A stretch of 64,000 nt of DNA, taken from positions 20,204-84,203 of IMG/VR virus record IMGVR_UViG_3300033150_001207, one strand, 5' to 3'. Both the position numbers and the translations under genes were made by a program. The stretch comes from a virus. The notes under the pieces are model-generated. The model was given only the letters and a program-made list of their open reading frames with translations, ran no database searches and had not been told where the DNA came from. This document shows, piece after piece, positions 4,034 to 30,900 of this stretch; the stretch's first letter is position 1, and the number at the start of each line of letters is the position of its first letter.

Positions 4034-4969
4034 ATGAAATTGAGTTACGATAACTACCTCGTTACCGGGGGTGCAGGATTTATTGGCAGCCATCTTGGCG
4101 AAGCAATAGTTAAACAGGGCAAGAAGCTAGTGATCCTTGATAACTTAATAACGGGAAAGAGAGAAAATTTAGAACCGTGGTGGGATGAACAGCTTTGTAC
4201 ATTTGTAGAAGCTGATATTAGCGACTATAATTCAATCCACCCATATTTTGATAGTGTTGATATTGTATTCCATAATGCCGCTTCCAAATGTACCGTATGC
4301 AGAAAAGCCCCAAATACTGATTTAATGGTCAATGCATGGGGTTCGTTAAATGTATTCAGAGCTTCGCAAAGTGCCGGGGTAAAGAAAGTTATTCATGCCT
4401 CCACTGGTTCTACGATGGAAGGTAATCCGAAATCATTCTATGGTGTAAGCAAGCTTGCGGCTGAAAATTACCTTGCTGTTATGCGAGAGTACCATCCCGA
4501 ATTTGTTTATTCTATATTGCGATATTACCATGTCTATGGAACTCGTCAGGATAATAGCGACGAAGGCGGCGTGATACCTATATTTATACGCAATGTTCTC
4601 AATAACGAACCTATTGTTATATTTGGCGACGGTAAACAGGTTAGGCATTTTACTACCGTCGAAGATGTTGTGAAAGCCAATTTATATGTATCCGAGGTAG
4701 ATGAATTTAGCTGGTATCCAGAATCGCCGCTTACTGTAGTATCAGATGTAAAGATTAGTATTTTAGATTTAGCACATTTAATATGTGAATTGATGGGTAA
4801 GCCAGATCATGAGATTATATTCAGACCAGAAAAACATGGTGATGTAAAAAACTTTGAATTTGTCAGAAGCTATAATCTTGATGAATTGGTACGGTTCAAC
4901 AATGACCTCGAAGGCGAGCTTAAAAAAGTGATAAACTGGTATAGAGAAAAATACAAATCAAGGCGATAA
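4034..4969 (+). CDS. NAD-dependent sugar epimerase/dehydratase (SDR family)
   Basis: A 311-residue extended short-chain dehydrogenase/reductase. Residues 11-20 give the Rossmann dinucleotide motif TGGAGFIGSH. The catalytic Tyr-x-x-x-Lys is Y136-GVS-K140. Other family patterns are VFHNAA, VYGTRQDNSDEGGVIPIFI and GDGKQVRHFTTVEDV. Such enzymes convert nucleotide sugars, for example UDP-glucose/galactose epimerases or dTDP-glucose dehydratases; the substrate cannot be read from sequence. It is the first of four sugar-related genes (to 8234) in the virion operon, so it probably makes the sugar used by the two glycosyltransferases downstream. RBS AGGGGA. Confidence 0.9.
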   Translation: MKLSYDNYLVTGGAGFIGSHLGEAIVKQGKKLVILDNLITGKRENLEPWWDEQLCTFVEADISDYNSIHPYFDSVDIVFHNAASKCTVCRKAPNTDLMVNAWGSLNVFRASQSAGVKKVIHASTGSTMEGNPKSFYGVSKLAAENYLAVMREYHPEFVYSILRYYHVYGTRQDNSDEGGVIPIFIRNVLNNEPIVIFGDGKQVRHFTTVEDVVKANLYVSEVDEFSWYPESPLTVVSDVKISILDLAHLICELMGKPDHEIIFRPEKHGDVKNFEFVRSYNLDELVRFNNDLEGELKKVINWYREKYKSRR

Positions 4970-4991
4970 AAAAACAATAGCGGGAAAAAGA

Positions 4992-6161: not shown

Positions 6162-6176
6162 CGCAGGGGAAAAATT

Positions 6177-7169
6177 ATGTTTGATGTATTAGCACTCTGT
6201 CAATTCGATTGGGCAAACACAGCTTATAAGTTTTGCCAGTGCTTACAAACACTGGGTATTAACGTAATCGGGTATAAGGGGCAACCTCATGAATTTAATT
6301 ATGTCAATCAGTTGCCTATTCATCTGGAACTTAATAAAGGTATAATTGGCAATAAACATCCGCTTGTCGTATTCGCACCCGGCATGAAAGGGCTTGTTGA
6401 AAAGGCCAAAGTTGTACATTTCTTTGCAAGTACATTTATTGAAACGGGTGTTGATTTATCAAATAAGAAAATAATTGCACAACATGGCGGTACAACTTAC
6501 AGGCTTGATCCAAAAGCAAGTAACGAGGTGTTCAATCCGATGGTTACTGCTACAATAATACAGTACCCAACGTTACTTAACAAGGGCGCAAAGAATGAAC
6601 ACTTAATTTATTATCCAGTTGATACCAATTTCATACAGCCAGATTTTGAACGCAAAGGCAAAAGTAAACTCATAGTGGGACATTTTCCGAGTACATGCGA
6701 TTCAAAAGGTACTGAAACCATTGTGAATGTAATGGACAAATTGAAGGACAAATTCGAGTATATAGGTGTACGCAAAGATATTCGCATCGATTGGTTGAAC
6801 AATCTCGAAAGGGTAAACAAATGCGACATATTAATAGAAACAATTAAGCCAGAGTTGATGGGAAAAGAATTTGGAAGCTGGGGAAATGCCTGCCTGGAAG
6901 CTGCCGCTCTCGGTAAAATAGTGATAACCAATGATAATTATCAAGATATATATAAACGGGAATATGGCAATTGGTTCGAGCCTATGATAGCCAATGACGG
7001 TGAACAACTCGAACAAAGATTACTCGAATTGTATGATTATATGGATAAAGAAATATTCCATAAGAAACAAGCATCACGGGAATGGGTAGTACAATGCCAT
7101 TCAATATCTGTTACTGCCGAACGCCTGTGGGATAAAGCTTATCAATATCTAAACATCGGGAGAAAATAA
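6177..7169 (+). CDS. Glycosyltransferase, GT4-like (first of two)
   Basis: A 330-residue GT-B fold candidate. The N-terminal half has AQHGGTTYRL, an acceptor-side segment. The C-terminal half has VGHFPSTCDSKGTETIV, the usual donor-domain opening, then GSWGNACLEAAALGKIVITND, in which the Glu and following Ala/Gly fit the donor-binding helix of family 4 glycosyltransferases. It would transfer a nucleotide sugar to an acceptor. The next gene starts immediately after its stop codon, so the two are translated together. RBS AGGGGAAAA. Confidence 0.75.
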   Translation: MFDVLALCQFDWANTAYKFCQCLQTLGINVIGYKGQPHEFNYVNQLPIHLELNKGIIGNKHPLVVFAPGMKGLVEKAKVVHFFASTFIETGVDLSNKKIIAQHGGTTYRLDPKASNEVFNPMVTATIIQYPTLLNKGAKNEHLIYYPVDTNFIQPDFERKGKSKLIVGHFPSTCDSKGTETIVNVMDKLKDKFEYIGVRKDIRIDWLNNLERVNKCDILIETIKPELMGKEFGSWGNACLEAAALGKIVITNDNYQDIYKREYGNWFEPMIANDGEQLEQRLLELYDYMDKEIFHKKQASREWVVQCHSISVTAERLWDKAYQYLNIGRK

Positions 7170-8234
7170 ATGAATGTAAAACCGAAAGTAACAATGATTA
7201 GCTTACATTGCTGCATAAGAGTTGTCAAAGAAGCAATAGCACTAAAGAATCATGGGTATGAGGTGCACGGAATACTCGGTGCATTGGCAATGCGTGATGT
7301 ATTCGATACAATCACCATATTTACGGATGGGGATAGTTTACAAAAAGCGGTTAAAGATTCAAATGCTGATATATTTCATGTGCATAATGAACCAGATTGG
7401 ATTGTACCATTAATAAAATACCCAGCGAAGAAAAAACCTATTATCTGGGATATGCACGACCCTGAACATTTACGTGATAACAATCCGAAACCAGAAGAAA
7501 CGACATCTGTCATGCTTGCGGATGGTATTGTACACGTAAGTGAACCATGTATGAAAGCACTACATAAAGCGTATGAATATAATAAACCAGAATGCGTAAT
7601 ACATTCAATGGTAAATGAAAAGTTTATGCCGCCAGATAATGCAATTATTCCAGACCCAAGTTTTAAATCAATTGTATATGAAGGGGGTATAGACGATACC
7701 GAAAAACCTGTTATAATCGGCGAAGACCCATCGGGTTCAGATAAAACGCTAGCCAGAGTAAATTTAAGATATATTATTGATATAGTAAAAGCTTTTTGTG
7801 TTTCTGGGTACAATTTTACAATTCTTTGTGCAAAGAATCTTAAAAATAATAATTATCAGAATGCAGGCGCTTTTGTTGTAAAACCAGTGCCATATGGTCA
7901 GATGTTGTTAGGTTTGCGTTCTCATGGATTAGGACTTAACGGTTCCCCATACAATTCAAGACTGTTGCAATATGCTTCACCGAATAAATTATGGGAATAT
8001 ATAAGTCAGGGTGTTGTGCCAGTGTGTTTTAATACAGACGAAAGTTTCAGACTTTGTGAACAGTATGATATCGGATTAAAGTTGACTTCACTTAACAATA
8101 TAGAAAGCCAGTTGACTGAAGCGCCGCAAAAACGAAAGAATCTGCTTAAAGTAAGAAAAGAATTCACAATGGAAAGTGAAATACCGAAGCTGATGAGGCT
8201 GTACGAAAAAGTATTGAGTAATGAAAAAACATAA
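7170..8234 (+). CDS. Glycosyltransferase, GT4-like (second of two)
   Basis: A 354-residue protein. IIWDMHDPEHLR (about residues 90-101) is typical of family 4 glycosyltransferase N-terminal domains. IVYEGGID opens the donor domain, and SPNKLWEYISQGVVPVCFN near residue 270 is the donor-site helix region. It probably acts with the preceding enzyme on the same glycan or on a virion protein. Start ATG abuts the upstream TAA, and the upstream GGGAG serves as RBS. The 8.3 kb small RNA candidate is transcribed from the other strand toward the 3' end of this gene. Confidence 0.8.
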   Translation: MNVKPKVTMISLHCCIRVVKEAIALKNHGYEVHGILGALAMRDVFDTITIFTDGDSLQKAVKDSNADIFHVHNEPDWIVPLIKYPAKKKPIIWDMHDPEHLRDNNPKPEETTSVMLADGIVHVSEPCMKALHKAYEYNKPECVIHSMVNEKFMPPDNAIIPDPSFKSIVYEGGIDDTEKPVIIGEDPSGSDKTLARVNLRYIIDIVKAFCVSGYNFTILCAKNLKNNNYQNAGAFVVKPVPYGQMLLGLRSHGLGLNGSPYNSRLLQYASPNKLWEYISQGVVPVCFNTDESFRLCEQYDIGLKLTSLNNIESQLTEAPQKRKNLLKVRKEFTMESEIPKLMRLYEKVLSNEKT

Positions 8235-8873: not shown

Positions 8874-10079
8874 ATGAAAGATCCACGGGAAGAACAGGCA
8901 GAAGAAGCGGTAAAAAGAGGGGAAGAAATTCAAGCTAAACTTTATAATGTTAGCAAAGAGGAAACTGTCCCTGTAGAAGCTTCTAAATCTCAGGAAATTA
9001 AACCTGATGAGAAAAAGCCAGAAAAGCAAGCCGAGAAGTCTGGCAAAAAGAGTAAAGAGGGCATTGAGCCTACTCAGGAATCCAAATCTGGTAGTAAAAA
9101 ACCAGAGGAAGAAACCTGGAAAAGCAAGTTTGATACTTTGCAGGGTAAATATAATGCCGAGATTGCTAAACTCAAAGCCAGAGTAGAGGAAGCTGAAAAG
9201 AGAGCAAGTGAGTGGAGAGATACTGTTGCTGAGATAGGGAAGTATAAAGCTACCGAAGCAAAGCAACGGGAAAAACCAGAAAAAGTTCCAGAAATTAAAG
9301 CACCAAAGATTGATTCTGTTGTTGCGCAACCGCAAAAGCACGTTACTGATGAGGACCTAGAAGATTACGGTCCTGAGCAGTATAATTATGTCAAGCGTGT
9401 TGCTCAAGAGGTTGTCGATAACGCATTGTTCAATTTCAATAAGGCTATTGGCGATGTTATTGAGAAACGGTTCAATCAAATCGAGGGAAGAATTGCTCCT
9501 GTCGCTGATGATTTAAAAACCGTTAAAGCGACACAGGTAAAATCAAGGGAAGATAAATTCTGGGAGGATATAGATAGATTGTGTCCTGATTTACAGCAAT
9601 ATAACTATGATCCTGCTTTTAACGATTGGCTTGACCAACCGTCTGTTGAGGCTGGTTTTAAACGTAGAGAGTTGCTCAATGATGCTTTCTACAATCTTGA
9701 CGCTAACCGTGTTGCTCGACTTTTCAATGCATTTTTAAATAGTTCGCAAGTAAATAAACAGGTTACTACTCAGCCTGAAAGTGTTGCGGTGAGCGAACCT
9801 GTTACAGAGCAATCGGTAGCAGTTCCATCTGAGCCAGAGACACCAGTTGCTGGCAAACAAGTACCTACTGTAGACATTGAGGACTTGATTTCCCCGGGTG
9901 TGTCAAAAGCTGGGCAGTCAGCAATAGCTGTGGCAGAAAGCGATACCCCGCCTTTTAGTATAAAAACGTGGGAAAAAGCTAAGTCAGATTGGAATAATAA
10001 GAGAATATCTCTCGAAGACTACGAAAAGATTCATGCCGAGTTCGACGCCGCATTAAGGGAAGGAAGGGTAGTACCATAA
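8874..10079 (+). CDS. Scaffold / capsid assembly protein
   Basis: A 401-residue acidic and Lys-rich protein directly before the major capsid gene, the classic scaffold position. The N-terminal 130 residues are low-complexity (E, K, P, A) with a coiled coil near WKSKFDTLQGKYNAEIAKLKA. The C-terminus ends in a small helical segment (SWEKA-like TWEKAKSDWNNKRISLEDYEK) found at the end of many phage scaffolds, which binds the capsid protein. It directs procapsid assembly and is then released or degraded; no protease gene was seen nearby. RBS AAAGGAG. Confidence 0.8.
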   Translation: MKDPREEQAEEAVKRGEEIQAKLYNVSKEETVPVEASKSQEIKPDEKKPEKQAEKSGKKSKEGIEPTQESKSGSKKPEEETWKSKFDTLQGKYNAEIAKLKARVEEAEKRASEWRDTVAEIGKYKATEAKQREKPEKVPEIKAPKIDSVVAQPQKHVTDEDLEDYGPEQYNYVKRVAQEVVDNALFNFNKAIGDVIEKRFNQIEGRIAPVADDLKTVKATQVKSREDKFWEDIDRLCPDLQQYNYDPAFNDWLDQPSVEAGFKRRELLNDAFYNLDANRVARLFNAFLNSSQVNKQVTTQPESVAVSEPVTEQSVAVPSEPETPVAGKQVPTVDIEDLISPGVSKAGQSAIAVAESDTPPFSIKTWEKAKSDWNNKRISLEDYEKIHAEFDAALREGRVVP

Positions 10080-10098
10080 GTTTGAAAGAGGTTTAATA

Positions 10099-10734
10099 AT
10101 GGCTGTTTACAACCGAGCTCAGGGTATGCCAAATTATTCCGCAGATAGCGGTGGAAACTTTATTCCTGAACTGTGGGCGCCCCGTATGCAAATCAGGTTT
10201 TATAAAGCCAATGTATTCAGAGCTATTTCCAATAATAGTTATGAAGGAGAGATTAAGCAATTTGGCGACACGGTTCATATAAACACATATCCTGACATCG
10301 ACATTTTCGATTATGTTAAAGGTCAAAAACTTCCTATTCAAACACCAAGCTCCACTCCTTCAAGTCTTACTATCGATAAGGGTAAGGCTTTCAACTTTTT
10401 AGTTGATGATGTGGACAAGGTACAGTCAAGACCCGATCTCACAAAAGAGTTCGGTGATACTGCCGGGTTACAATTGGCAGAGGAAATAGACAAGGATGTT
10501 ATTCAAGGTGTTTATTCCGATGCTGATTCCGACAATGTTGGTGCGACTGCTGGTGCAGAATCAAATTCCTATGATATGGGTGCTGCGTCTGCATACGAAA
10601 GTCTCACCAAGACCACAATTCTTGACTATATCGTTGACATGGGTTCTATTTTGGATGAACAGAACGTTCCTAATGATGGCAAGCGCTGGGTTGTTTTTAC
10701 ACCCTGGGCTGCTGGACTCATTAGAAAATCGGAT
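10099..10734 (+). CDS. Major capsid protein, exon 1 (212 codons)
   Basis: N-terminal two thirds of the major capsid protein. Recognisable segments are FIPELWAPRMQIRFYKANVF near the N-terminus, FNFLVDDVDKVQSRPDL in the middle, and WVVFTPWAAGLIRKSD at the exon end, a pattern of many phage capsid proteins. The reading frame runs on 12 codons into intron sequence and stops, so without splicing the protein would lack its last 100 residues. The exon ends at GAT, and GGAT pairs with the intron's GTCC to give the U-G pair expected at a group I 5' splice site. RBS GAGGTTTAATA. Confidence 0.9.
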
Positions 10735-11661
10735 TCAAAAAGGGTCCCCTGCGTTAGTAATATCGCAGTGTAAATCAGGTGAATTGCTGGAATACTGAAA
10801 TGTAAATCAGCAGCCAAGCCCTTAAATGGGAAGGTCCAACGACTAATTCCTGAGTCTTAAAAAGTCTAAACTTTTATGTCGGAGACTTAAAATGAACAAA
10901 TATGATAGGGGAGTATTAATTGGTATGGCTCTTGGGGATGGATATATAAAAGTTAAAAGTGATGCTGATAGAATCAAAAAAAGAAACCCTTCGGCACAAA
11001 TGTCTTTTAGTCATAGCATAAAACAAAAAGAATATGCTCAATACAAAGTAGATAGATTGAATAAAATATTTGGTGGAAATGCTACTTTGAGAACTGGGGT
11101 ATATAAAAGTACAAACGGCGAAAGCTATAAAATATGTTATGCAAATAAGAGTAATCCATATTTTAAAGTGTTAAGAAGAATGCTTTATAAAAATGGTCAA
11201 AAATATATAACAAGGCATGTACTTAATATGTTAAATCCAGATGGTATTGCAATATGGTTTATGGATGATGGTAGCCGTAGGGCAAACAAGAATCTTGATG
11301 GTAAAATATCGTCAGTAGCTTTAACAATAAGTACGTGTTGTTCACGAGAAGAAGTTGACTCTATAATTGACTATTTTAATGAAATATATGGAATAGGGTT
11401 TAAACCAGCATTACACAAAAGAACTAGTTTATGGTCTGTAAGAGCCAATACATATGACTCGAAAATGTTGGCAAATCTTATAATGCCATATATGATTGAT
11501 TCTATGAAATACAAACTATCATTTGTTACAAAACTCAGGGAACACGAGCTCCTGAAGTCCAATAATCAGTTATATATTGTTGGATTATGAGATAGTCTAA
11601 ACTTACGGAAATAGAAACCGTAAGAAGTTTAGGATAAAGAGCCTAAACGGTAATAAAATTG
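10735..11661 (+). mobile_element. Group I self-splicing intron in the major capsid gene (927 bases)
   Basis: P1 is exon GGAT|TC paired with intron GGGTCC across an AAAAA loop, with a U-G pair at the cut. The core follows the group I plan: GAATTGCTGGAA and AATCAGCAGCCAAGC (P4/P6 region), CAACGACTA (P7 5' strand), then GAGATAGTC (P7 3' strand) after the endonuclease gene. P9-type hairpins TTACGG/CCGTAA and GTTTAGG/CCTAAAC follow. The last intron base is G11661, as expected for the terminal guanosine. The endonuclease gene sits in the loop between P7 5' and P7 3'. Joining 10734 to 11662 restores frame (codons GAT-CTG). Confidence 0.88.
10892..11590 (+). CDS. LAGLIDADG homing endonuclease inside the intron
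   Basis: A 232-residue protein with two LAGLIDADG-type motifs: VLIGMALGDGYIK (about residues 8-20) and IAIWFMDDGSRRA (about residue 115-127). Such enzymes cut intron-less alleles so that the intron is copied into them by repair. Start ATG follows a GGAG site. The gene is AT-rich compared with the flanking exons, a usual mark of a mobile endonuclease gene. Confidence 0.92.
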   Translation: MNKYDRGVLIGMALGDGYIKVKSDADRIKKRNPSAQMSFSHSIKQKEYAQYKVDRLNKIFGGNATLRTGVYKSTNGESYKICYANKSNPYFKVLRRMLYKNGQKYITRHVLNMLNPDGIAIWFMDDGSRRANKNLDGKISSVALTISTCCSREEVDSIIDYFNEIYGIGFKPALHKRTSLWSVRANTYDSKMLANLIMPYMIDSMKYKLSFVTKLREHELLKSNNQLYIVGL

Positions 11662-11964
11662 CTGAAAGATGTTTCCATGACTGGTGATACTGTATCACCG
11701 CTTCGTAATGGTAGAATCGGTATGATTAATAACATGAACATTCATGTTTCCAATAATGTACTTTCTACCACCGACGGTGGAACCACTGTCTGGTATATGC
11801 TTTTTGGTCATCCATTAGCGATTTCATTCGCAGAACAACTTGTCCAGACCCGTGCAATTCAGGCACCCGACACATTCGGATATTACATCAGTGGTCTCCA
11901 TGTTTATGGATACGACGTTGTTAAACCCGAAGCTTTAGGGTATCTGTATGCGGCGAAAGGCTAA
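11662..11964 (+). CDS. Major capsid protein, exon 2 (100 codons plus stop)
   Basis: C-terminal part of the capsid protein, starting LKDVSMTGDTVSPLRNG and ending LGYLYAAKG. GRIGMINNMNIHVSNNV and FAEQLVQTRAIQAPDTFGYYISGLHVYG are typical of phage capsid C-terminal domains. A TTG at 11659 could make it look like a separate gene, but it lacks a good ribosome binding site and the upstream exon needs it. Spliced product length would be 312 residues. Confidence 0.88.
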   Translation: MKDVSMTGDTVSPLRNGRIGMINNMNIHVSNNVLSTTDGGTTVWYMLFGHPLAISFAEQLVQTRAIQAPDTFGYYISGLHVYGYDVVKPEALGYLYAAKG

Positions 11965-12004
11965 TAATTGTTAATCTAAATCTTAGAAAGTAAGGGATTT
12001 TGAA

Positions 12005-12484
12005 ATGTCAACAACTTATGATTATATTGATGAGACTGATAAACAGTTTCATGGTGTTGATTTTCCTGTCGCTGGGTCTGAAAGGTTCACTGTTGTGGAA
12101 CGCACGTTCGATGCGGCTGAAGCATTGGACGATCTTGGTGCTTCCGCATGGGTAGCCAATGATGTTGTGAAACTTATTGATGTTCCTGCAAAAACACTTA
12201 TTCTGGGTATTTCTGTCAGGATTACATCTGCCGAGTCCACTGACAATGCTACTCTCGATATCGGAGACGGGGATGACCCGAACGGATGGGAAGATGGTAT
12301 TGACGCAACCACAACCACGCATATTTTCACTAAAACATATGCCAATGGTGGAAGTGTGACCGATAAAGATAACGGTTACTATGCTTCTGCGGATACAATT
12401 GACGCTGTGTTAGGTGATGTTGTGTGGACTGATGGTGTGTTCAATATTAAAGTAGTTATGGTTAATATGGCTGACGTCAATTAA
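12005..12484 (+). CDS. Capsid decoration-like protein
   Basis: A 159-residue, beta-rich acidic protein directly after the capsid gene. The pattern VPAKTLILGISVRITSAES followed by ATLDIGDGDDPNGWEDGID matches small proteins that commonly follow major capsid genes and are thought to decorate or stabilise capsids. Start ATG follows GTAAGGGA. Role is inferred from position and pattern. Confidence 0.65.
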   Translation: MSTTYDYIDETDKQFHGVDFPVAGSERFTVVERTFDAAEALDDLGASAWVANDVVKLIDVPAKTLILGISVRITSAESTDNATLDIGDGDDPNGWEDGIDATTTTHIFTKTYANGGSVTDKDNGYYASADTIDAVLGDVVWTDGVFNIKVVMVNMADVN

Positions 12485-15577: not shown

Positions 15578-18500
15578 ATGGCTGAAGAAGATTTAGTTAT
15601 ACAGCCCGACCAGACACCAGAACTCAGAACCGATATTCCGCAGGCACCGGATACTACTGTTGTAAATGGCGATATAGTGCCAAATTTGAGGACTGATATT
15701 CCGCAGGCGCCGGATACCGTGGTTACGGATAGCGACACGAAACCTACTTTGAATATTGATATACCGACAGCGCCAGATACGATAGTTACGGATACCGCGA
15801 TAACACCAAAGCTTGATACAGAGTTTCCGACTGCCCCCGATACAGTTGTTACAGTACCAGATTCAGTACCCCAGCTTTCTCAGGAATTTCCAGTCGCTGA
15901 CGATATACCATTGGAACGTGCTGAGTTTTCGTTCGCAAGAGGTAGATGGTTACCCAAGGGTGATGCACTGACAATCGGCGAGGAAAATTTCAGTGAGCTT
16001 GAGAACTTCAGGTATACCGATTTTGGACTGGAGGGTGTTGGTGGATTTACGAGGTTAAATGGTAATTACAAAATCGCTACTAGTATAGAAAACGGTATAC
16101 AGCTCACTACCAATTACAGTGCTGCGCCTTCTTATGTAATTGTGCAGTCTGGCGAGAGCCCTAAAAATTATTATTACTATACTGATGCTATTCCCAATGC
16201 TGTAAGTGGTGCTGCCACTGCATTGCACAGTGGGGTAGCGGGTAACTCTACTGCAAGATTTTCAAAATTGCCCAATGGGCATATTGGAATATGCGACGGG
16301 AAGGAAAATTTAATATGGGCAGGCGAACAAATGCCTGTTGGAGCATTTTTGGTAGCAGATATCGTTGATGGTACTATAGCCTATTTTCCTCAGATGGTTG
16401 ATGATGACCACATACAAGATTTTACAAATATAATCAATAATACGTTGAATGATTCAAATAATTATGTAGACTTAAACTATGTAACAACGGCATTTGGAGA
16501 TGATAGTTCTACGGTTACAGTCGCTAATACTTCTGGTAATATTATGAGATATACCGATAATGAAGTTGTTGACCATCATTGTGATTTTGTTACCAATGGA
16601 TTAGCTGTTGGACATGCTATAGTAGTAAAAAAAGGCGGTCCGTTTGGTGGTACAAATGAAGGTATGTTTAAAGTTACTGCAGTTGCGGAAACTTATTTTG
16701 AGGTAGAAAATCCTGATGGTGCTCTTGAGGGACCGGTAACTCTGACTGCTGATGCAATACGAACATGGGGAAAAAGAATATTAATAGGTACTACAAGAAG
16801 AGCAAGGGGATTTACTTTTGATATAGAAACAGCTAATACAAAATCTGCAACTTTAACGGAAATATATGTTATTGCTCCAACGACAGGGGCATTTACAGGA
16901 ATAACCACTGGGGCTTCGGTAATTACTGATGGTACTGAAGTTGGCGGGAAAACTATGGCTCAAAGTGGTAGTGTTACGTGGACTGATCCTGAAATAGACG
17001 AAGTAAAAACATTCTTTAAGGGATATTATTTATACTGGTATTTATTAGGAATAAGCGATTGTAATGCCAATATTGCCAATGTTACGGCAAAATGTGATGT
17101 TCAAAGCTTATCCGATATATGGGATGGAGTTTATAGAAAACCTATTTTATGTAAATACTATGACGATGATAATACTCCCTCGGTAAGAGATTATACACTT
17201 GAAATCAACACAAAAACCCCGATTACACAGCAGACAAATACTGACATTGACCCATATACTGTACCGATACAGAATATGGAACCTAAAATTGACTATTTGA
17301 CTGTTATGTTTGAAGAACCAATTAGGGCTTCAATTATTAATCTATACACTTATAAAACTGGTAATTCAGCAACACAAGACGGAACTGTAAATGTTAGATA
17401 CAATGTTGGTGATACGTGGTGTAATGTTAGAAGAATAATAAGGGATTCCACCGCGGTTCCCGGCTATAACCAGGGTGGATATGCTATTGGTGATTTCAGA
17501 AATCACACACAATTCCTGCCATTTTATAGAAGTGGTGTAATTCAGTGGCGGATAGACCCTACTCAAGTTGCACCAGAAAGAAGTGTAACTATAGATGGAA
17601 TTACAGGTTATGCATACAAATTCGTTACAGAAACTACAAAAATAACTGGCGATGTACAAATAGACACGATAGATGGTATTCCTGATCTACCAGAAATAGA
17701 TACGTTATACATATTCCCATTCCAATACAAGAACCGAGCTATGTGGTGCGGTGCTATATCAGACAATGAGAAGAATCGTGTAGATTATAGTAAAACCAAT
17801 ACCGTAGATGTATATAATGGTATGGATGCAAGCGGGTTTCATCACGAACGTTCGTTGTATTTTGGCGATCACCGCGCGCTTACAGGTGCTATTGAACTGT
17901 TTAATCAATATGGTGATACCGTGGAATCGATAGCTTTGTTCTTCAAAGATACCGAAACGTATATGCTTACTGGTTACAATCCAGAAACATTTAAGATACA
18001 TAGAATATCAAATTCTATTGGTTGCCCAGCGCCTTTGACTATTACTTCTGCCGAGGTATCACTTAAAGTTGAAGATGCGCCCGCTCAGAATATTGCATTA
18101 TGGTTGAGTGATAAAGGACCGAAAATGTATATTAATAATACTATACGTAGTATAAAAGGCGTCGAGAATTATTTCCAGCAAAGCGAAACAGAGGCAATAA
18201 ACACATCGTATTTTAGCATATGCAGGGCATGGTTCAATTCAGACTATCAAGAATGGAACTTGCTTATACCTTCTGGTTCTGGACAAACTACCATAAATAC
18301 ATGGTTAGTATACGATTTAATACGCGACAGATGGTATAAAAACACACCGACAGACGATTTTCCAGAAGGTGCATTCCCAGTTGTAGACACTAATGGGTTA
18401 TCATATAATTATGGATACACTACCGATAACGGTGGTGTATTATTACGCATGGAAAATGGACTTAAATGGGGCGACACCGATGATATAGAAAACAAAGTAA

Positions 18501-19168
18501 CCACATCCGATTTTTTTTTCACAAAGAGTCTCTGGGATATAACAAGACTTAGACGATTATGTTCGATATTCAAGACCAACACTGCCAGTGATATTACAGT
18601 AGAGTATTATAAAGACACACGTACAACGCCCGAAACTGTGGATGCATTACCGAGCGCCGCTACCATGGCTCTCACGGGACACAGGATAAGACATTTAATA
18701 TCGTATCTGGATTTACGTGCGTGGGTACATAGGTTAGCTTTTATTGTCAAGAATGCAACGAGTGTTAAGCCAGTATTGCTGGGATTCGGTGCATATTTCC
18801 AGAGAGTTTATGAAGAACTTAAAGATAGAGATGATTATGAAACGATAACGATTACCGCTTCGAGTAATGATGTGTTAATATTTACGAGCAGTCAGGGTGG
18901 CTCTGATGTATCAATAACCGTTCCCGCTGGCGTTTACACTTTCGATGCCGCACTTCACGCTCTTGAGGACGCAATGAATGATAACGATGAGTTGGTCGGT
19001 GTATTTACTGTTACCTGCGTGGATAGTAAAACCACCATTTCTATTGACAGTGGTACGATTGCGTATACAAACAATGGTAGCGCTGGCGGTTCGGCGTTCG
19101 GGTTCACAAGTGATAAAGCAGCGGCGTCAAGCATCACGGCTGATAATGCATTAACAGAAGCACCATAA
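15578..19168 (+). CDS. Large tail hub/stabilisation protein
   Basis: A 1196-residue protein following the adaptors. Residues 14-108 are a 21-residue repeat (see the repeat feature). After it comes RGRWLPKGDALTIGEENFSELENFRYTDFGLEGVGGF, a segment found at the start of large podovirus tail hub proteins, then a long beta-rich body with many GNT/YTG patterns. LWLSDKGPKMYINNTIRSIK and WNLLIPSGSG suggest a propeller-like region. The last 110 residues (ITITASSNDVLIFTS...) form a separate beta domain common in phage tail proteins. It probably caps the neck and carries fibres. Confidence 0.75.
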   Translation: MAEEDLVIQPDQTPELRTDIPQAPDTTVVNGDIVPNLRTDIPQAPDTVVTDSDTKPTLNIDIPTAPDTIVTDTAITPKLDTEFPTAPDTVVTVPDSVPQLSQEFPVADDIPLERAEFSFARGRWLPKGDALTIGEENFSELENFRYTDFGLEGVGGFTRLNGNYKIATSIENGIQLTTNYSAAPSYVIVQSGESPKNYYYYTDAIPNAVSGAATALHSGVAGNSTARFSKLPNGHIGICDGKENLIWAGEQMPVGAFLVADIVDGTIAYFPQMVDDDHIQDFTNIINNTLNDSNNYVDLNYVTTAFGDDSSTVTVANTSGNIMRYTDNEVVDHHCDFVTNGLAVGHAIVVKKGGPFGGTNEGMFKVTAVAETYFEVENPDGALEGPVTLTADAIRTWGKRILIGTTRRARGFTFDIETANTKSATLTEIYVIAPTTGAFTGITTGASVITDGTEVGGKTMAQSGSVTWTDPEIDEVKTFFKGYYLYWYLLGISDCNANIANVTAKCDVQSLSDIWDGVYRKPILCKYYDDDNTPSVRDYTLEINTKTPITQQTNTDIDPYTVPIQNMEPKIDYLTVMFEEPIRASIINLYTYKTGNSATQDGTVNVRYNVGDTWCNVRRIIRDSTAVPGYNQGGYAIGDFRNHTQFLPFYRSGVIQWRIDPTQVAPERSVTIDGITGYAYKFVTETTKITGDVQIDTIDGIPDLPEIDTLYIFPFQYKNRAMWCGAISDNEKNRVDYSKTNTVDVYNGMDASGFHHERSLYFGDHRALTGAIELFNQYGDTVESIALFFKDTETYMLTGYNPETFKIHRISNSIGCPAPLTITSAEVSLKVEDAPAQNIALWLSDKGPKMYINNTIRSIKGVENYFQQSETEAINTSYFSICRAWFNSDYQEWNLLIPSGSGQTTINTWLVYDLIRDRWYKNTPTDDFPEGAFPVVDTNGLSYNYGYTTDNGGVLLRMENGLKWGDTDDIENKVTTSDFFFTKSLWDITRLRRLCSIFKTNTASDITVEYYKDTRTTPETVDALPSAATMALTGHRIRHLISYLDLRAWVHRLAFIVKNATSVKPVLLGFGAYFQRVYEELKDRDDYETITITASSNDVLIFTSSQGGSDVSITVPAGVYTFDAALHALEDAMNDNDELVGVFTVTCVDSKTTISIDSGTIAYTNNGSAGGSAFGFTSDKAAASSITADNALTEAP
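15617..15901 (+). repeat. 63-base tandem repeat coding a 21-residue unit, about 4.5 copies
   Basis: Units start at 15617, 15680, 15743, 15806 and 15869 (partial). Consensus protein unit: P-x-L-x-x-[DE]-[IF]-P-x-A-P-D-T-x-V-x. The in-frame 63-base period is exact for four units. It likely forms an extended or trimer-stabilising stalk at the protein's N-terminus; copy number could vary between relatives. Confidence 0.85.
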
Positions 19169-19177
19169 AGGTATAAT

Positions 19178-19543
19178 ATGTGGAGTATATTACGATATTT
19201 ACAAACTGTGGTTAATTCCGACCCTGATAGTGATATTGCTTACGAATACTACAGGAATACCAGAACTGGAACTACTGCAACTAATTTGCCGAGCGCTGTA
19301 ACGACAAGCGGGACTGGGCATCGTAATAGACGCATAATATCGGGCGATAGTCTCAATTGGCGTAATCACAGATTAAGTATTACAACAAAAAGATGGGATG
19401 GTACACTTACATTTACTCATGATTGGACTTTCGATAATACCACTCTTTGCAGATTTTTGGTCAATGTTTTGATGGATGCAGACGGTGATATCAATATAAA
19501 TGACGCACAACACTTAATTGGAATATATCCAGGGATAGGTTGA
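19178..19543 (+). CDS. Small tail protein with dockerin-like end
   Basis: A 121-residue protein. Residues 15-65 (SDIAYEYYRNTRTG...LPSAVTTSGTGHRNRRIIS) match a segment of the preceding giant protein (SDITVEYYKDTRTTPE...LPSAATMALTGHRIRHLIS, nucleotides about 18590-18700), so it looks like a partial duplicate. The C-terminus, LMDADGDININDAQHLIGI, resembles one dockerin/EF-hand calcium loop. RBS AAAGGTATAAT. Whether it is a structural partner or a leftover is open. Confidence 0.6.
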   Translation: MWSILRYLQTVVNSDPDSDIAYEYYRNTRTGTTATNLPSAVTTSGTGHRNRRIISGDSLNWRNHRLSITTKRWDGTLTFTHDWTFDNTTLCRFLVNVLMDADGDININDAQHLIGIYPGIG

Positions 19544-19547
19544 TAAA

Positions 19548-20810
19548 ATGCTAACAGGTGGATTGCTTGAACTTCTCGATAAACTTATGGGTAAAGCTGT
19601 CGGGTCTGGAACATATAATCAGACTACAGATAGTAATGAAGCTATCAGGGAAGCTATTGATGGGTTGAATGATGTTTCTGCTGCAGAGGTTAATGCTGAA
19701 TGCGATACCGCTTTATCTGATTATGACCCGCCTACAAGAGCAGAGCTTACGGCTGATAAGGACAGTATTATCACAGAAATAAATGCCAACGAAACAAAAA
19801 TCGATGCATTAAATGATATATCTGCTGCAGAGGTTAATGCTGAGGTCGATAATGCACTGAATACTGCAATCCCTACAACTCCGACTACGGATTCAATAAA
19901 TGAGCGTATTAAAGCTATTGATGATAAACTTCCTTCGGGAACAATATCTGATATCACCACAGCTCAAGTCAATACCGAGGTTGATAATGCGATAAATACT
20001 GCTGTACCAGAACCACCTACTGCAAAGAGTCTTGCAGATATTTTGCATAAGGACAGTAATTATACTTACGATAATACGACCGATAGCCTTGAAGCTATTG
20101 CTGATGCTGTGGCAGGAATAAGTGGTGGAGGTGGAGGTTTATCTGCAAAAGAGAAATCGTTGCTTGGTATTGGCGTAGTTCCAGGATTTCAAGACTTTTT
20201 CAATACCGTTGCGAATGGTGCCGCCCCAGACTCAACTTATTGGTCAGTTGTTGAAAATGGTGATGGTGCTGTAACTATACTATCAGTAACACCTTATACT
20301 CCAGGATTTCTACAATGTTATACTGTTGTGACTGGTAATGATGCCATCGCTTATACAAAAGATAAGCGTGTTGTTTCGCTTAAAAATGGTGTTACAACTG
20401 TATGTTTAAAGGCTTACGTGAATTTAAGTTGGGGATGTGCTGGTTATGAGGGAAAATGTGGAATAGGTTTTACAGAGAATGATAATATCCCAGCGGATAC
20501 AGATATTCTTACAGGTGCTGCTCACGAGGTCGCATCAATAGTTGCTGATGCAGGAGTTCCAAAAGCATTTTCTTCTGATGGAAATACGGTCGAGAGCACT
20601 GATTTATCCTCTTATATAAGTGATGATACATGGTTTGATTTAGAAATTAGAATAACTTCATCTGACGTGAAATTTTATATAGATGGTACTCTTAGAGCAA
20701 CACATTCAACAAGTGTTCCTAATAGTGTTTGGCAAGTTGTAGCCAGCGGTACGGGTGAAAATGATACAATTAAAGTAAAAGTGGAAAAAATACAAGTTTG
20801 GGGAGAGTAA
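19548..20810 (+). CDS. Tail fibre-like protein with lectin-like C-terminus
   Basis: A 420-residue protein. The first 200 residues are a repetitive helical/extended stalk with two copies of SAAEVNAE[CV]D and one TTAQVNTEVD unit, then a GGGGG linker near residue 195. The last 215 residues (PGFQDFFNTVANGAAPDSTYW ... KVKVEKIQVWGE) look like a concanavalin/LamG-like beta sandwich, used for glycan binding in phage fibres. RBS is weak; start ATG lies four bases after the upstream stop. Confidence 0.65.
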   Translation: MLTGGLLELLDKLMGKAVGSGTYNQTTDSNEAIREAIDGLNDVSAAEVNAECDTALSDYDPPTRAELTADKDSIITEINANETKIDALNDISAAEVNAEVDNALNTAIPTTPTTDSINERIKAIDDKLPSGTISDITTAQVNTEVDNAINTAVPEPPTAKSLADILHKDSNYTYDNTTDSLEAIADAVAGISGGGGGLSAKEKSLLGIGVVPGFQDFFNTVANGAAPDSTYWSVVENGDGAVTILSVTPYTPGFLQCYTVVTGNDAIAYTKDKRVVSLKNGVTTVCLKAYVNLSWGCAGYEGKCGIGFTENDNIPADTDILTGAAHEVASIVADAGVPKAFSSDGNTVESTDLSSYISDDTWFDLEIRITSSDVKFYIDGTLRATHSTSVPNSVWQVVASGTGENDTIKVKVEKIQVWGE

Positions 20811-21016
20811 TGAATAACTTACAAGAAATACCATGCTCAGTTACACGAGAAATAGATGGCAAGCAATACATAGTACGGAAATTTGGATACAACGGACAGG
20901 TTTACGAAGAGCATCTTATCCCAGTACCAACTGAGAAAACAATCCGTACTTTTAAAAAAGATGGTACTGAGGATACAACCAAACAGAAAAAAGAACCGAT
21001 TAAACTACAGAAGTAA
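20810..21016 (+). CDS. Small protein after the fibre gene
   Basis: Unrecognised 68-residue protein. An upstream TTG (20798) is in frame, but ATG at 20810 overlaps the fibre stop (TAATG) and has GGGGAGAG in front, so it is preferred. It holds a beta-rich stretch (KQYIVRKFGYNGQVYEEHL) and a Lys-rich tail. Possibly translationally coupled to the fibre gene. Confidence 0.6.
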   Translation: MNNLQEIPCSVTREIDGKQYIVRKFGYNGQVYEEHLIPVPTEKTIRTFKKDGTEDTTKQKKEPIKLQK

Positions 21017-21112
21017 AAACTTATAACCAATTGCAAAACCATTAACTGGTATTCAAAGAAAATAACGTATAACTATACTAGCGTTTTTAATATTCAGGGA
21101 AAATAACACATA

Positions 21113-21817
21113 ATGCTCGTATCTATACAACCACAAAAAGCGGTATCGTTCACAATAATCACACCTGTATTCGACGCCGAATGGGCTGAGTATATAAGCG
21201 GCGCAGCCAATCTTGATAGCGAAATTTCACAGGACGGCGGTTCTTTCAGTGATTGTACCAACGAGCTTACAGAGATTGGCTCTACTGGTGTTTATTCTCT
21301 CGTTTTAACTGGTACAGAGACAAACTGTTCGCAAGCGCTTATCAAAGCTACTACCACAACTGACGGTGCTAAAATACCGTGCTTTTTCATGAACACGGAA
21401 TCGGCTGGCGGCGGTGATGCTACGGCGGCGAATCAGAACACGATAATTGGTTATCTGGATACAGAAATCGCAGATATAAAAGCCAAAACAGATGGACTGA
21501 ATTTCACAGGCAATTATGTTCAAGCGCAGGTCAAGGGTCAGGACGATATTGACTTTGGGGCAACACAAAAATCCAGCATTCAAGATGCGGTAGAAGCGAA
21601 ACTTACATCTGCAAATACCGAACTTACAAGTGTACCTGCAGCTACTGCTGGATTGCGAGCAATGATCCAATTTATTTTTGAGAAACTTAAGCACAAGGGT
21701 ACGATGAACAAAGACACAGGGGAAGAAAAATTGTATAAAGATGACAATTCTACTGTACTCGGAAGTGCTACCCATAGCGATGACGGGACTACGGTTACAC
21801 GGGGTAAAATGTTATAG
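21113..21817 (+). CDS. Tail/baseplate-like fibre protein
   Basis: A 234-residue protein of a common phage type: a beta-rich N-terminal domain, a stalk with NTIIGYLDTEIADIKAKTDGLNF, and a C-terminal end with YKDDNSTVLGSATHSDDGTTVTR. This modular set is seen in tail tip and receptor-associated proteins of many phages. The next gene starts right after its stop codon. Confidence 0.6.
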   Translation: MLVSIQPQKAVSFTIITPVFDAEWAEYISGAANLDSEISQDGGSFSDCTNELTEIGSTGVYSLVLTGTETNCSQALIKATTTTDGAKIPCFFMNTESAGGGDATAANQNTIIGYLDTEIADIKAKTDGLNFTGNYVQAQVKGQDDIDFGATQKSSIQDAVEAKLTSANTELTSVPAATAGLRAMIQFIFEKLKHKGTMNKDTGEEKLYKDDNSTVLGSATHSDDGTTVTRGKML

Positions 21818-22321
21818 ATGTTATCGGGATATTCTTATAGGGAAATTATAACTATAAATTCATCAGAGGTTGATAATGTTCATATCAGTCCTATTGTTAA
21901 AGTAGAGCTATCATCAAGTAATTTTAATTTTAGTTTGACACGTCCCGATGGTTACGATATACGGTTTACAGATTCCAACGAGGACACACTCTTATCATAT
22001 CAGAGATTGTCCTATGATGTTACATTGGAAAGAGGTATATTTCTTGTCAGACTGTTAGAAAATCTCTCGCCAGATTCGGATACGACATTTTATTTATACT
22101 ATGGGAAATCGGATGCTACCGATGTTTCCGACAGTACCGTTGCTTATGGTACAGCGAAACCGAAACTGTTATTTAATACAATGCGGTACAGGAAATTCAG
22201 AGATGATATGCTTGACAAGGATGATTTACAATACTGGATAGAACAGTATTATTTAAAAATTGATTCAACACATTTATTAGAGATTGACAATGCTGGTTAT
22301 ACATTGATAATAGGTGGATAG
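21818..22321 (+). CDS. DUF2341-like fibre protein
   Basis: A 167-residue beta-sandwich candidate. YREIITINSSEVDNVHISPIVKVEL, DGYDIRFTDSNEDTLL and TTFYLYYGKSDATDVSD follow the DUF2341 pattern, a concanavalin-like domain in surface and fibre proteins. The last 13 residues (LEIDNAGYTLIIGG end) recur as the tail of the collapsed gene immediately downstream. Confidence 0.65.
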   Translation: MLSGYSYREIITINSSEVDNVHISPIVKVELSSSNFNFSLTRPDGYDIRFTDSNEDTLLSYQRLSYDVTLERGIFLVRLLENLSPDSDTTFYLYYGKSDATDVSDSTVAYGTAKPKLLFNTMRYRKFRDDMLDKDDLQYWIEQYYLKIDSTHLLEIDNAGYTLIIGG

Positions 22322-22324
22322 AAC

Positions 22325-22445
22325 ATAAGCTACAATAAGAATAAACAGATTAACGAATTAGTGCAATTAATAAGTACTACCGATAATAACAAGATATTTA
22401 TCAGAGATTGGTAATACTGAGTATACTTTAGCAATTGGTAGGTAA
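22325..22445 (+). pseudogene. Collapsed fibre gene: head and tail remnants only
   Basis: In a gap of 127 bases, frame 22325-22414 reads ISYNKNKQINELVQLIS..., matching the start of the next gene (MSYSENKQIGGLTQLTS...), with ATA in place of ATG. It stops at TAA after RDW. In a second frame, 22404-22445 reads EIGNTEYTLAIGR-stop, matching the end of the preceding gene (EIDNAGYTLIIGG-stop). So it resembles a fibre gene whose middle has been deleted, leaving about 30 head and 13 tail codons. Confidence 0.7.
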
Positions 22446-22448
22446 ATT

Positions 22449-24437
22449 ATGAGCTATAGTGAAAATAAGCAGATTGGTGGACTGACACAGTTAACAAGTG
22501 CTGCCGATAATGATAAACTCGCAATCGAAGATGCTGACGAAACGACAATATTAAAATATATCGCAGCATCCAATCTCAAAACGTACATGAACGCTGGGTT
22601 TACCGCATCCCGCGCACTTGAAACAGACGGCAGTGGTAAAATTGTTGTTTCTGCTATTACGGCTACAGAACTTAATCACCTCAGCGGTGTAGCAAGCAAT
22701 ATCGGTTCACATATGACTGGTAAAGATGGTGTATATCACTTACCAGACCAGGCAGGACACGGTGGTGAATTCCTAACTACGGATGCATCTGTTGCAAGCT
22801 GGACAGCACTTACTGGATTAATAGGTCCCACAGATATCCAGGACTTCGCTGTTACCATGAGCAAATTATTTACAAAAATACCGGTGATTGACAATGATTC
22901 ATGGAGCGATAATACACCGGGTACGGGATACATTCAGTGGAATACGCATAACCTTTGTTACAATGGCGAGTATTATGAAGTTACAAGCGATAGTACAAAT
23001 CAAGAATTCGTTTGGTGGACAGTTGGTAACAGTGGCGGTTCAGGAACGGTAGCTGACCCATACATAACAACATACAGTGCTGGTGATACTGCACCCACAA
23101 TGACAGATGATACTTTTATTATTTGTACAAACAAGGATGGGAATGGTACTCATAATCTCGCATGGAATAGCATAGCGAATTCGGTTATCGGGACTGCGTA
23201 TATAAAAAGTGGTGCAATAATAAATGCTCATATTGCAGATGCAACAATTGAGCATGCCAAAATTAAAAGTGTGGATGCTGGAACTATTACTGTCGGGAAA
23301 CTTGGGGATGATTACATATCAAGTGCATCGACATGGAATGCAAAGGCAAAAGTGTTCAGGCAAGATACAGAACCGAGTTCGGGAATGTCGGCTGGCGATA
23401 TATGGATTGATACCAGTGATGGTGATAAACCTTATACTTATACTGGAAGTGTATGGAATCCAGAATATACCCATATTGATGGGGGAAATATAACTACGGG
23501 TACGATTACCGCTATTACGCATCAGACAGCATCAAATGGGCAGAGGATTGTAGTAGATGCAAGTGATAATACATTAAGGTTTCATACTGATACAGCAGAA
23601 GATGTTGTTATTATAGATGACTTATTATATGGCAACATTCCAGGCATTCAAATTGGAGAAAGTACACACGGCGGAATTTTTGTGGCAACAAATGGAAATG
23701 TAGAAACATATATGTCTCATGATACAATTCAGATGGGGGGAAAGGAAGGCAGCCCCGCACAATTTAGGGTATTACATGATAGTGTAACCAAGACTATTGT
23801 AGATGCTGCTGGAATAAATGTTATGGATGGGATAGTATACGCATCAGATGAAATATCAACTTCGGGGTTTGTACAAGCCAACGCAGGATACAGAATTGGT
23901 GATACAGAAATTATAGATTCAAACAAAAATATCACAACAAATATAGGTACTGTTGATGGTATTAAAATTTCTGATCATGCCGCCAATGCTGATGCACATC
24001 ACAACGAAGTACACACACTTAACAGCCATTCAGATGTAGATACTACCGGAATATCGGATGGCGAAGTGCTTGAATATGATACTGCTATGGGATGGATTGC
24101 TGGCAGTACCTATACCCCTGGTTCCCATGTCGGTGCCGGTGGTGCTGCTCATGCAGATGTCACTACTACCGTTGATGGTTTTATGACAGCTACCGATAAA
24201 GTTAAATTGAATAGTATTGATACTGGTGCTGATGTTACGGCAGATAACTGGCCAAAAGTTCATGGCAACACTTATCATACATCAAATTATCAAACCGCAG
24301 CTAATGTGGATGCTAAAATATTGACTCATAAAAACGATGCCAATGCTCATCATGCAGCACATAGTGGTGTAAGCGGTTGGTTGGGTGGTCAGGATGTACG
24401 ATTTGAAAACGGTCTTGCGGTTGAATTTGGAACTTAG
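22449..24437 (+). CDS. Tail fibre protein
   Basis: A 662-residue fibre. The N-terminus (MSYSENKQIGGLTQLTSAADNDKLAI) is a short attachment module that also appears in the remnant upstream. It continues with repeated GTITVGKLGDDYISSAS-like and NADAHHNEVHTLNSHSDVD-like stalk units and many Gly/Thr/Asp turns, typical of trimeric receptor-binding fibres. RBS is weak (GGTAGGTAAATT). Confidence 0.75.
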   Translation: MSYSENKQIGGLTQLTSAADNDKLAIEDADETTILKYIAASNLKTYMNAGFTASRALETDGSGKIVVSAITATELNHLSGVASNIGSHMTGKDGVYHLPDQAGHGGEFLTTDASVASWTALTGLIGPTDIQDFAVTMSKLFTKIPVIDNDSWSDNTPGTGYIQWNTHNLCYNGEYYEVTSDSTNQEFVWWTVGNSGGSGTVADPYITTYSAGDTAPTMTDDTFIICTNKDGNGTHNLAWNSIANSVIGTAYIKSGAIINAHIADATIEHAKIKSVDAGTITVGKLGDDYISSASTWNAKAKVFRQDTEPSSGMSAGDIWIDTSDGDKPYTYTGSVWNPEYTHIDGGNITTGTITAITHQTASNGQRIVVDASDNTLRFHTDTAEDVVIIDDLLYGNIPGIQIGESTHGGIFVATNGNVETYMSHDTIQMGGKEGSPAQFRVLHDSVTKTIVDAAGINVMDGIVYASDEISTSGFVQANAGYRIGDTEIIDSNKNITTNIGTVDGIKISDHAANADAHHNEVHTLNSHSDVDTTGISDGEVLEYDTAMGWIAGSTYTPGSHVGAGGAAHADVTTTVDGFMTATDKVKLNSIDTGADVTADNWPKVHGNTYHTSNYQTAANVDAKILTHKNDANAHHAAHSGVSGWLGGQDVRFENGLAVEFGT

Positions 24438-24486
24438 AAAAAATAATAACAACGAAACTTAAACTTATTATTGAGGTATATAACAG

Positions 24487-25035
24487 ATGAAAAGAATTAT
24501 ACTAACATTGCTATTACTATTAACATTGCCGTATACCACTTATAGTAATCCTGTATCAAAACTGTGGGACACTAGCTGGATTTCTCAACAGTGGCTGAAG
24601 TATGGTTTCCTGGGTTCTGCCTGTTTATCTGGTGTACTTGATGGTCTTGTCGAATCACATAAGTTCAACGGCAGATATATAACAAGTAAAAGTGATTATC
24701 ATGCTTACCGATATGCCCAGAACGCAACGATGATAAGCACTGGATGGTTTCTGTCCGCTAATTTAAGAAGTAACAAACTCACATGGAAAACGAAAATTAT
24801 GCGAACAACGTCGCTAATACTTCTAAGACGCAACTGTTTTGAATGGGCATACAAAGCTAATAGATGGGGAAATTGTTTTGATTACAGCGATAAACATACC
24901 TGTAATCATAAAGCAATAGTGTATTTCAAGTGGAATGGAAGCGGATTTACGGATGCTTATATATCGGGAACTGGAACTCAAGGGGTGATTATAGATTTGC
25001 TATGTTGGACTCTAGGAATATGGTTGTTTAAATAA
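24487..25035 (+). CDS. Hypothetical protein with signal peptide
   Basis: A 182-residue protein. Residues 1-20 (KRIILTLLLLLTLPYTTYS) form a Sec-type signal peptide. Further hydrophobic stretches near 40-55 and 165-182 may be membrane-linked. It holds four Cys (two in CFDYSDKHTC). It opens the internal virion gene group. Function unknown. Confidence 0.6.
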   Translation: MKRIILTLLLLLTLPYTTYSNPVSKLWDTSWISQQWLKYGFLGSACLSGVLDGLVESHKFNGRYITSKSDYHAYRYAQNATMISTGWFLSANLRSNKLTWKTKIMRTTSLILLRRNCFEWAYKANRWGNCFDYSDKHTCNHKAIVYFKWNGSGFTDAYISGTGTQGVIIDLLCWTLGIWLFK

Positions 25036-25133: not shown

Positions 25134-25580
25134 ATGGCATTGACTAATTATTATTACGATATCGAGAGACAGAAAATTGGCGCAATTCCGCAACAACTTC
25201 GTGCGATACCACAGGTAGGTTATACAAAACTGTTACAACAAAAAGCGGCTTCTGACGTTGGACGAACGCTACAACAACAGGATATAGCGAGTAGACTCAT
25301 GAGACAACAATACCAAACGGCATTACCCGAACAGTTTTTAAAAACAGCAAAGCGTGAATATAAAAAAGCATTGCCAATTACTATTGCTGGTGTCGGACTT
25401 GCGGGACTAGGTGCATACAGCGATTATCGCGCAGAAAAACAACGCCAGAAAGAACAGGAAGAGCTGGAATTACTATACAAAATGCTTATGAAAATAGTCG
25501 AGGAAAATGCTGGTCGTATAGCAAAAGCGTATTCTATACCATCAGCAGAGTACAGGGCAGCTTTCAGACCAAAACAATGA
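25134..25580 (+). CDS. Hypothetical virion protein, helical
   Basis: A 148-residue Gln/Arg-rich protein with a central hydrophobic stretch (ITIAGVGLAGLGAY) followed by a coiled coil (RAEKQRQKEQEELELLYKML). RBS AAAGGATTATT. Its position before the large internal proteins suggests an internal virion or ejection role. Confidence 0.6.
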   Translation: MALTNYYYDIERQKIGAIPQQLRAIPQVGYTKLLQQKAASDVGRTLQQQDIASRLMRQQYQTALPEQFLKTAKREYKKALPITIAGVGLAGLGAYSDYRAEKQRQKEQEELELLYKMLMKIVEENAGRIAKAYSIPSAEYRAAFRPKQ

Positions 25581-27921: not shown

Positions 27922-30900
27922 TTGCCAATCATTGATGTAAAAGATATTCCTGATGATATTGTAATTCGTGAAAGAGAAACTGTATCTACTAGAGAACCTG
28001 TAGCTATTCCTTCAGGTGGCAGGCTAGTGTCGCCAGAGGATATTCCTGAAGATATAGTAATACATGAAAGGGAAATTGCACCTTCTGCAAAACCTGTAAA
28101 GATAGAAGAACCTATTCGTGAGATTCCAGAATCAATACCGGCCCGAATAGAACCTCGTAAAAGGCTTGGGAAAATAACACCGGTAGAACCAGTGTCAACC
28201 GCTGAAGAAAAGGCACGAAAACCTTTCGTTCCTGTTCCTGCGCCGATTGGATATAAACCACCTTCTATTGAAACAGAAAAGCCCGAACTGTTTGTACCGG
28301 CAGCAGAGAAACAAATTAAAAAATTACCCACTACTGAGCCAGAAGAAATACCATCCTCTTTGAAGCCCGCAATAGCTGAACCGGTGTCTCTCTACGTCAA
28401 ACCAAGATTCAAGCCCGAACCAGAGGAACAAAAATTCAGGGATATAATAAAATCTCACTGGAAAATAGGTTCTCTGGTTATAAAAAGAGGAGAGTTGGGT
28501 GCAAATGCAAGAGATACTGGTCTCTCAGTCGAAGAAACTCTAAAACAGGCTAGAGAAATTGACAAACTGGCAAAATCATACAGAAAAAAAATGCCCGAAT
28601 TTAGCATAAAGAAACCCACAACCTGGTTACCCTCTCTCGTAGCGCAAACAACCGAATTAATACCATATATGGGCAGAGGACAAGTTGAGGGTATGAAAAT
28701 GGGTATTGCTACTGGTGTTGGATTTGGCACGATGACTGCGCTCTGGGGTCAAGCCGGTCCGCAGGTATTAACCCCTGAAGAAGTATTAACCATTCCAGGG
28801 GCGATGGCTGTAGGCGGAACTGCCGGATGGGTTCTGGGCTCACTTAAAAATTGTATGGATATTGAGGGTGGTAACTTATATATAGACTTACTCGAACGTG
28901 GTGTAAAACCAAAAGTAGCAAAACAGCTTTCATTGGCGGGAGGGCTTGCAATAGGTGCTATTGAAGTTGCACAGATAGGTAGAATAGCTAGAAACTTACC
29001 AGGATTCGAGTTATTCTTTAGAAAAGGTGCTAAAAAACTAATTGCAAGCGATACATTCAAGAACATACTTAAAATCTCTGCAAAAGAATACGCAAAAGAT
29101 GTTGGCTATGAAATAGGAGAAGAAGAAGCACAGGAAATTGCATCAATGGCATCCGAATTTGTTGGCAGTTCTATATCTCCGGGCGCAGAAAAACTTACAT
29201 TTGGTGAAGCAAAGGATAGATTGAAAGGAGTAATTACACAGTCTGCTCTTGGATTTACGGGACTGTTGTTACCCGGACAGCTTTATAAAACAATTGGTAG
29301 AACCAGAGCTTTGAATATAAAGAAAAGTCTTGACGCTCTTGTGGAAGAAAAAACACCTAAACCGCCCGAAGTTACCAAACCACCGTCTGTCGTTCCTGAA
29401 GTAGAGAAAATCGTTCCCAGGCCGCCTGAAGCAGTCAAAGAAGTATGGGAAATGACAAAAGAAGAATTGAAAAATCTCGAAATTCCAGTTCCTGAAGGCG
29501 GCGCAAGCAAATCCCCTAAAACTGTTTTTAGCTGGAAACCAGGTGAATACGAAACGTTACATGATGTGAGCCAGTCAGAAGATGAATTTAGATTTAACGA
29601 AATACTTGGCAAAGGGTGGGAAGGTAAAGCATCATTACACTTAAAACCGAAGATAAAAAACAATGAGCCCATAACTGTTTACAGAGCGAGTGATTACGAG
29701 ATTATACCGGGTTCTTACGTTTCCGAAAGTATCGAATATGCAAAAAAACATGGCGAGAATATACTTGATGGTAAATACAAAATACATTCACTGGAAGTGA
29801 AACCGAGCGAACTGTTAGTATACGGAGACCCTCATGAATTTATTTATGTACCAGAATCCATCGAAGTTGGGCATAAACGCATAATAGAAAAAGCTCTATC
29901 TGAAGGCAAACCAGTTCCTAAAGAGGTATTGGAAGATTACCCCGAACTACAGGAAAAAGCAAAAGAATATGAAAAACCAGAGAAACTCGAAATATCTGTT
30001 TTAGATCCCAAGCCTGGCGATATTACGGGTTCAAAAGATATGTTGCCAAAACTTATAAAACTTAGAGACAAAGGCTCTGAAATGGTTAAACCAGATATCG
30101 TAAACAAACTCGAAAAATTCTGGAAAGAAAACCCCGAAGCTGAGTACGGTATATGGCAAGAAGATTTATCAATAAAACCTGTAACCAAAGAAACACTCGA
30201 AAAACCGCCTGAAATCACTGAACCCACCATTACTAAAGTAACCAAAGCTATTCCCGAAAAAGCCCCAGCTATCACTGGTAGAAAATCCACGGCAAAAACA
30301 GAGGCGGGTACAGAAATAGAATTTGACTATGATATTTACGACATTAACGACATTATTGCTTCCCACGATACAAACCTGCGAGCCAATCCACTATATCCAG
30401 CGGAAAAACAACCCCGTGGCAGAGCAAGAATGGCATCCGAAGCTCAAATTAACAAAATTACCCGTGAATTAGCACCTGAACGTCTTGGTGAAAATCCACT
30501 TGTGTCAGAAGGTGCTCCAATTGTCGACAAATCCGCCATTGTAGAATCAGGTAATGCGAGAATTATTGCACTACAGAGACTTTATGAATCAAAAAGTGAT
30601 AAAGCAAAAGAATATAAACAGTTTTTAATAGATAATGCTGAAAAATTCGGGTTGGATGTCGATAAGATTAGGGACATTGCCAATCCTGTACTTGTAAGAA
30701 GAAGATTATCAGATGTTGACATAGATAAGTTTATAAGAGAAGCAAACGTACCTACTGTTGCCGCTATGAGCGCTACCGAACAGGCGTTATCTGACGCAAA
30801 AATGCTTTCCGACGAAACTCTTGCAATGTTCGATGTGGGCGAAACAGGTGAAATAGATACAGCGGCAAATAGAGATTTTGTGCGTAGATTTTTCAAGGAA

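Follow-up and report, generated by a model that had tools for sequence, protein, structure and literature searches.

Introduction

Distant phages are known to exchange modules for host recognition; for example, a tail fibre module is common to the Alteromonas phages A5 and V22 (PMC10579305). The locus described here resembles such exchange in two respects, as part of one of its genes (gene B) has 91% DNA identity to part of the otherwise dissimilar phage L002, and as the island of genes around it differs between relatives. It differs in that the short remnant between genes A and B gives no sign of exchange, and in that the part shared with L002 is internal to gene B and is neither of the two modules found in the remnant. 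The locus lies in a stretch of 64,000 nucleotides (the window, to which positions refer unless another locus is named), which belongs to a virus record of 84,203 bases with the structural gene order of a tailed phage, including a portal-type protein. The original prediction took the remnant for a collapsed fibre gene, reduced to its first and last modules between two intact fibre genes, an interpretation that is partly supported by the results below.

Results

Gene A (21818–22321, plus strand) encodes 167 amino acids, with a DUF2341 domain at residues 44–106 (Pfam PF10102, E 2.2e-11) and a C-terminal stretch ending LLEIDNAGYTLIIGG, here called the tail. Gene B (22449–24437, plus strand) encodes 662 amino acids beginning with an N-terminal stretch called the head; it partly matches tail-fibre and tail-tip proteins, and its product is probably a tail appendage protein. 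The flanks do not prove to be two intact fibre genes: gene A encodes a DUF2341 protein and only gene B is tail-appendage-like. As a single protein, the head had no match among viral contigs, while as a two-row alignment it matched three loci there, of which L087 was the only new one; the head is thus common to the relatives L003 and L004 and to a gene of the unrelated phage L087. No match was obtained for 21800–24440 against annotated phages (blastn), or in searches of viral contigs and phages with the gene A protein; the tail peptide of gene A gave only matches of E about 1 in unrelated phage proteins, and two scans of genome collections for relatives of this phage found none.

The interval between the two genes is 127 nt long (22322–22448). 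Its first part is a decayed head (22325–22402, plus strand), which has ATA where gene B has ATG, continues from 22325 as ATA AGC TAC AAT AAG AAT AAA CAG ATT and reads (I)SYNKNKQINELVQLISTTDNNKIFI; after the start codon, 14 of 25 residues are identical to MSYSENKQIGGLTQLTSAADNDKLAI of gene B, and 26 of 75 nucleotides differ. The second part is a decayed tail (22404–22445, plus strand), which lies in the +1 frame and reads EIGNTEYTLAIGR before a TAA stop, with 8 of 13 residues identical to EIDNAGYTLIIGG of gene A, also followed by a stop (12 of 39 nucleotides differ). The remnant thus contains no ATG and its halves lie in different frames, two points on which the original prediction needs amending. 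Its similarity to the start of gene B and to the end of gene A is nevertheless far beyond chance: the local alignment of one flank with the other scored 43, against a best score of 20 among 2000 first-order Markov shuffles. When the whole 84,203-base record was searched, the head protein matched only gene B and the remnant (E 5e-4), and the gene A protein matched gene A alone.

Self-comparison of the window with blastn aligned 22266–22387 with 22390–22511, without gaps, over 122 bp (69.7% identity, E 3e-7). With the alignment and the shuffles, this bears out the observation that the remnant starts like the next gene and ends like the previous one. The repeated block consists of the gene A tail, its stop, a 3-nt spacer and the gene B head, all at a single offset of 124 bp. 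Copy 1 (22266–22389, plus strand) holds the end of gene A (22266–22321), the 3-nt spacer and the decayed head (22325–22389), while in copy 2 (22390–22513, plus strand) the decayed tail (about 22390–22445) is followed by the 3-nt spacer and, from 22449, by the true start of gene B. The remnant is best divided into a B-like and a following A-like part at 22388–22396, and since copy 2 begins there, the two copies abut. Below about 22260, the match at offset 124 falls to background. The tail pair differs at 16 of 56 positions and the head pair at 19 of 63 (Fisher P 1.0), and this equal divergence is what a single duplication of the A/B junction predicts. With only about 70% identity between the copies, an assembly artefact was rejected.

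Diverged direct repeats of short length are also present within genes at 15626–15797, 19656–19851 and 27943–28098, with offsets of 63, 144 and 96 bp, respectively, and given these three, tandem duplication on a small scale is a recurrent event in this phage. The three offsets are all multiples of three; the junction repeat (124 bp), which is not within one frame, is the exception. A 64-bp direct repeat with 95% identity is also present, in two copies 11.6 kb apart (45091–45154 and 56711–56774).

Among about 90 fetched loci, only L003 and L004 were informative at the junction; they have about 47% identity over the upstream 1196-aa gene and keep the gene order, and as they are near-identical to each other here, they count as one independent syntenic lineage. 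In both, the gene for a 131-aa protein with the C-terminal end ALLIDNAGHYLLIDNANNKLLIS lies 9 nt before that for a 753-aa homologue of gene B starting MAYNEDKILGSLNEISDIADVDKLVIEDAD, so that the tail-ending protein (..LLIDNAGHYLLIDNANNKLLIS) directly adjoins the gene B homologue, with no gene between them and a single tail–head junction. Against the tail of these relatives, gene A scored 36 and the inner tail 14, and against their head, gene B scored 59 and the inner head 36. Since the outer copies resemble the relatives more, the inner copies are the changed ones. The two copies accordingly abut, share one orientation, remain collinear across the junction and are evenly diverged, and the relatives have one junction, as expected of a tandem duplication.

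Residues 75–131 of the 131-aa protein of L003 align with residues 112–167 of gene A, and its residues 5–74 are matched by a 121-aa protein encoded at 19178–19543 (plus strand). The gene A match rests mostly on the tail (P 0.21 when the tail is left out), and the pattern is only suggestive of one 131-aa-type gene that was split by extra genes here, or of a fusion in L003.

The locus belongs to a variable island (19178–25035, plus strand) between a conserved 1196-aa gene (15578–19168) and a 148-aa gene (25134–25580), the latter matched in distant relatives by eye, from position and sequence pattern. The island measures 107 nt in L094 and L095, holds one 269-aa gene in L096, and reaches 2.7 kb in L003 and L004 and about 6 kb here; gene content thus varies at a fixed position, between what are apparently the same two conserved genes. 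In a distant relative (L098), the corresponding variable region (9962–12305 of that locus) contains two genes in which inspection by eye revealed radical-SAM-like CxxxCxxC motifs. Within gene B, 476 bases (23526–24001, plus strand) have 91% DNA identity to positions 5730–6205 of L002 (blastn), where the counterpart is part of a 1285-aa tail-tip-like protein (Pfam); in its available part, L002 has no other similarity to the window. This identity likely reflects a recent exchange. It is plausible that tail genes diversify at this locus, and to this extent the idea of a module exchange site stands, with the variable island and the L002-like part of gene B in its favour; the remnant, from which the idea had been drawn, gives no sign of exchange and is not evidence for it.

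Some features elsewhere in the window were also recorded. A capsid-type gene (10099–11964), of which L004 has an intact version (313 aa), is interrupted by about 0.9 kb with a LAGLIDADG endonuclease gene (10892–11590, Pfam E 5e-29) and with matches to group I introns that fall below the Rfam curated score, at 10725–10908 (E 6e-8) and 11488–11618 (E 0.013). Between the portal-type and capsid genes, 4034–8234 carries a gene for an NAD-dependent epimerase (Pfam E 1e-43) and, after it, further genes whose products by eye resemble sugar-processing enzymes.

Discussion

We consider it likely that the remnant stems from an old tandem duplication of the 124-bp A/B junction and has since decayed, and that it is not a fibre gene without its middle. 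A single tandem duplication would have copied the last 18 codons of gene A, the 3-nt spacer and roughly the first 20 codons of gene B, in one step, by slippage or illegitimate recombination, resulting in the order tail-head-tail-head, in which the inner parts, as 124 is not divisible by three, meet in different frames. The outer tail would still be used by gene A, and gene B would use the outer head along with the ribosome-binding stretch before its ATG, while the inner head and inner tail, no longer of use, have decayed (ATG to ATA), with a spacer of about 127 nt left over that carries no sign of its own function and is presumably untranslated. A codon-level test gave weak protein-level constraint in the inner head (P 0.02–0.04 under a simple neutral model); the inner head could have been translated for a time, and selection on gene B alone may also explain the constraint. 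As such, the remnant is ordinary, though it lies in a stretch that is highly variable among relatives.

Against a duplication, it can be argued that, had a third gene with these two ends, i.e., a fibre gene with the head of gene B and the tail of gene A, suffered an internal deletion, the order of parts would be identical. The possible leftover coding constraint in the inner head would fit such a gene, as would the presence of the same head type on a gene of the unrelated phage L087 and the varying gene content of the island. However, no gene with both head and tail is present in the 84,203-base record or in any of the about 90 fetched loci, which include few relatives and one independent syntenic lineage, so that the comparison with relatives did not yield the full-length gene that the original prediction called for. 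Moreover, the head occurs in gene B only and the tail in gene A only, gene A having no head and gene B no tail, while the tail gene and the gene B homologue are directly adjacent in relatives, and the equal divergence of both parts would have to be a coincidence. The loss of a third gene is therefore unlikely, and a duplication event would account for the remnant instead.

It is quite improbable that the duplicated junction is the scar of a roughly 2.6-kb insertion (about 19430–22140) that split a 131-aa-type gene, which would make the event a cassette exchange and not simple slippage or unequal crossing over. In favour of this, the 131-aa protein of L003 splits cleanly, its residues 5–74 corresponding to the 121-aa protein and its residues 75–131 to the end of gene A. 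But without the tail, the match of gene A has no significance of its own, the 124-bp repeat is situated at the far end of that gene, away from the edges of the extra stretch, and L003 could have lost that stretch instead. It is also very doubtful that junction duplications at this locus are recombination targets that admit new genes to the island, with the remnant as a used or unused landing site.

That the 127-nt interval is a functional element (a small peptide, a regulatory leader or the template of a diversity-generating retroelement) is extremely unlikely, since, despite a promoter-like match at 22284–22311 (11/12) and many differences with A in the remnant and G in its partners, the head has no ATG start and the remnant lies in two frames, readings as an RNA element or terminator were dropped for want of a terminator-like site or stable fold (ordinary fold, z-score 0.14), and a retroelement template was rejected, as the reverse transcriptase family PF00078 is absent from the 84,203-base record, which may be incomplete, and the differences occur at all four bases, mostly as transitions in either direction and not from A to any base.

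The probable junction duplication carries a practical warning, as a gene junction duplicated in tandem over a short stretch can mimic a collapsed gene and is thus a trap both for annotation and for the inference of module shuffling; the variable island and the stretch that gene B has in common with L002 are better evidence of tail-gene exchange than the remnant. In comparison with known systems, the locus is like a diversity-generating retroelement in that a direct repeat, about 120 bp long and diverged, lies beside a tail protein gene, but it differs in having no reverse transcriptase in the record and no A-specific substitutions, and in that the repeat is at the start of the gene. The closer likeness is to a short tandem duplication with decay of the redundant copy, where the copies likewise abut without gaps, one useful copy of each part is kept and the redundant inner parts have decayed. 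The difference from the usual tandem duplication is that the unit here spans a gene junction, and the leftover consequently imitates a gene with borrowed ends.
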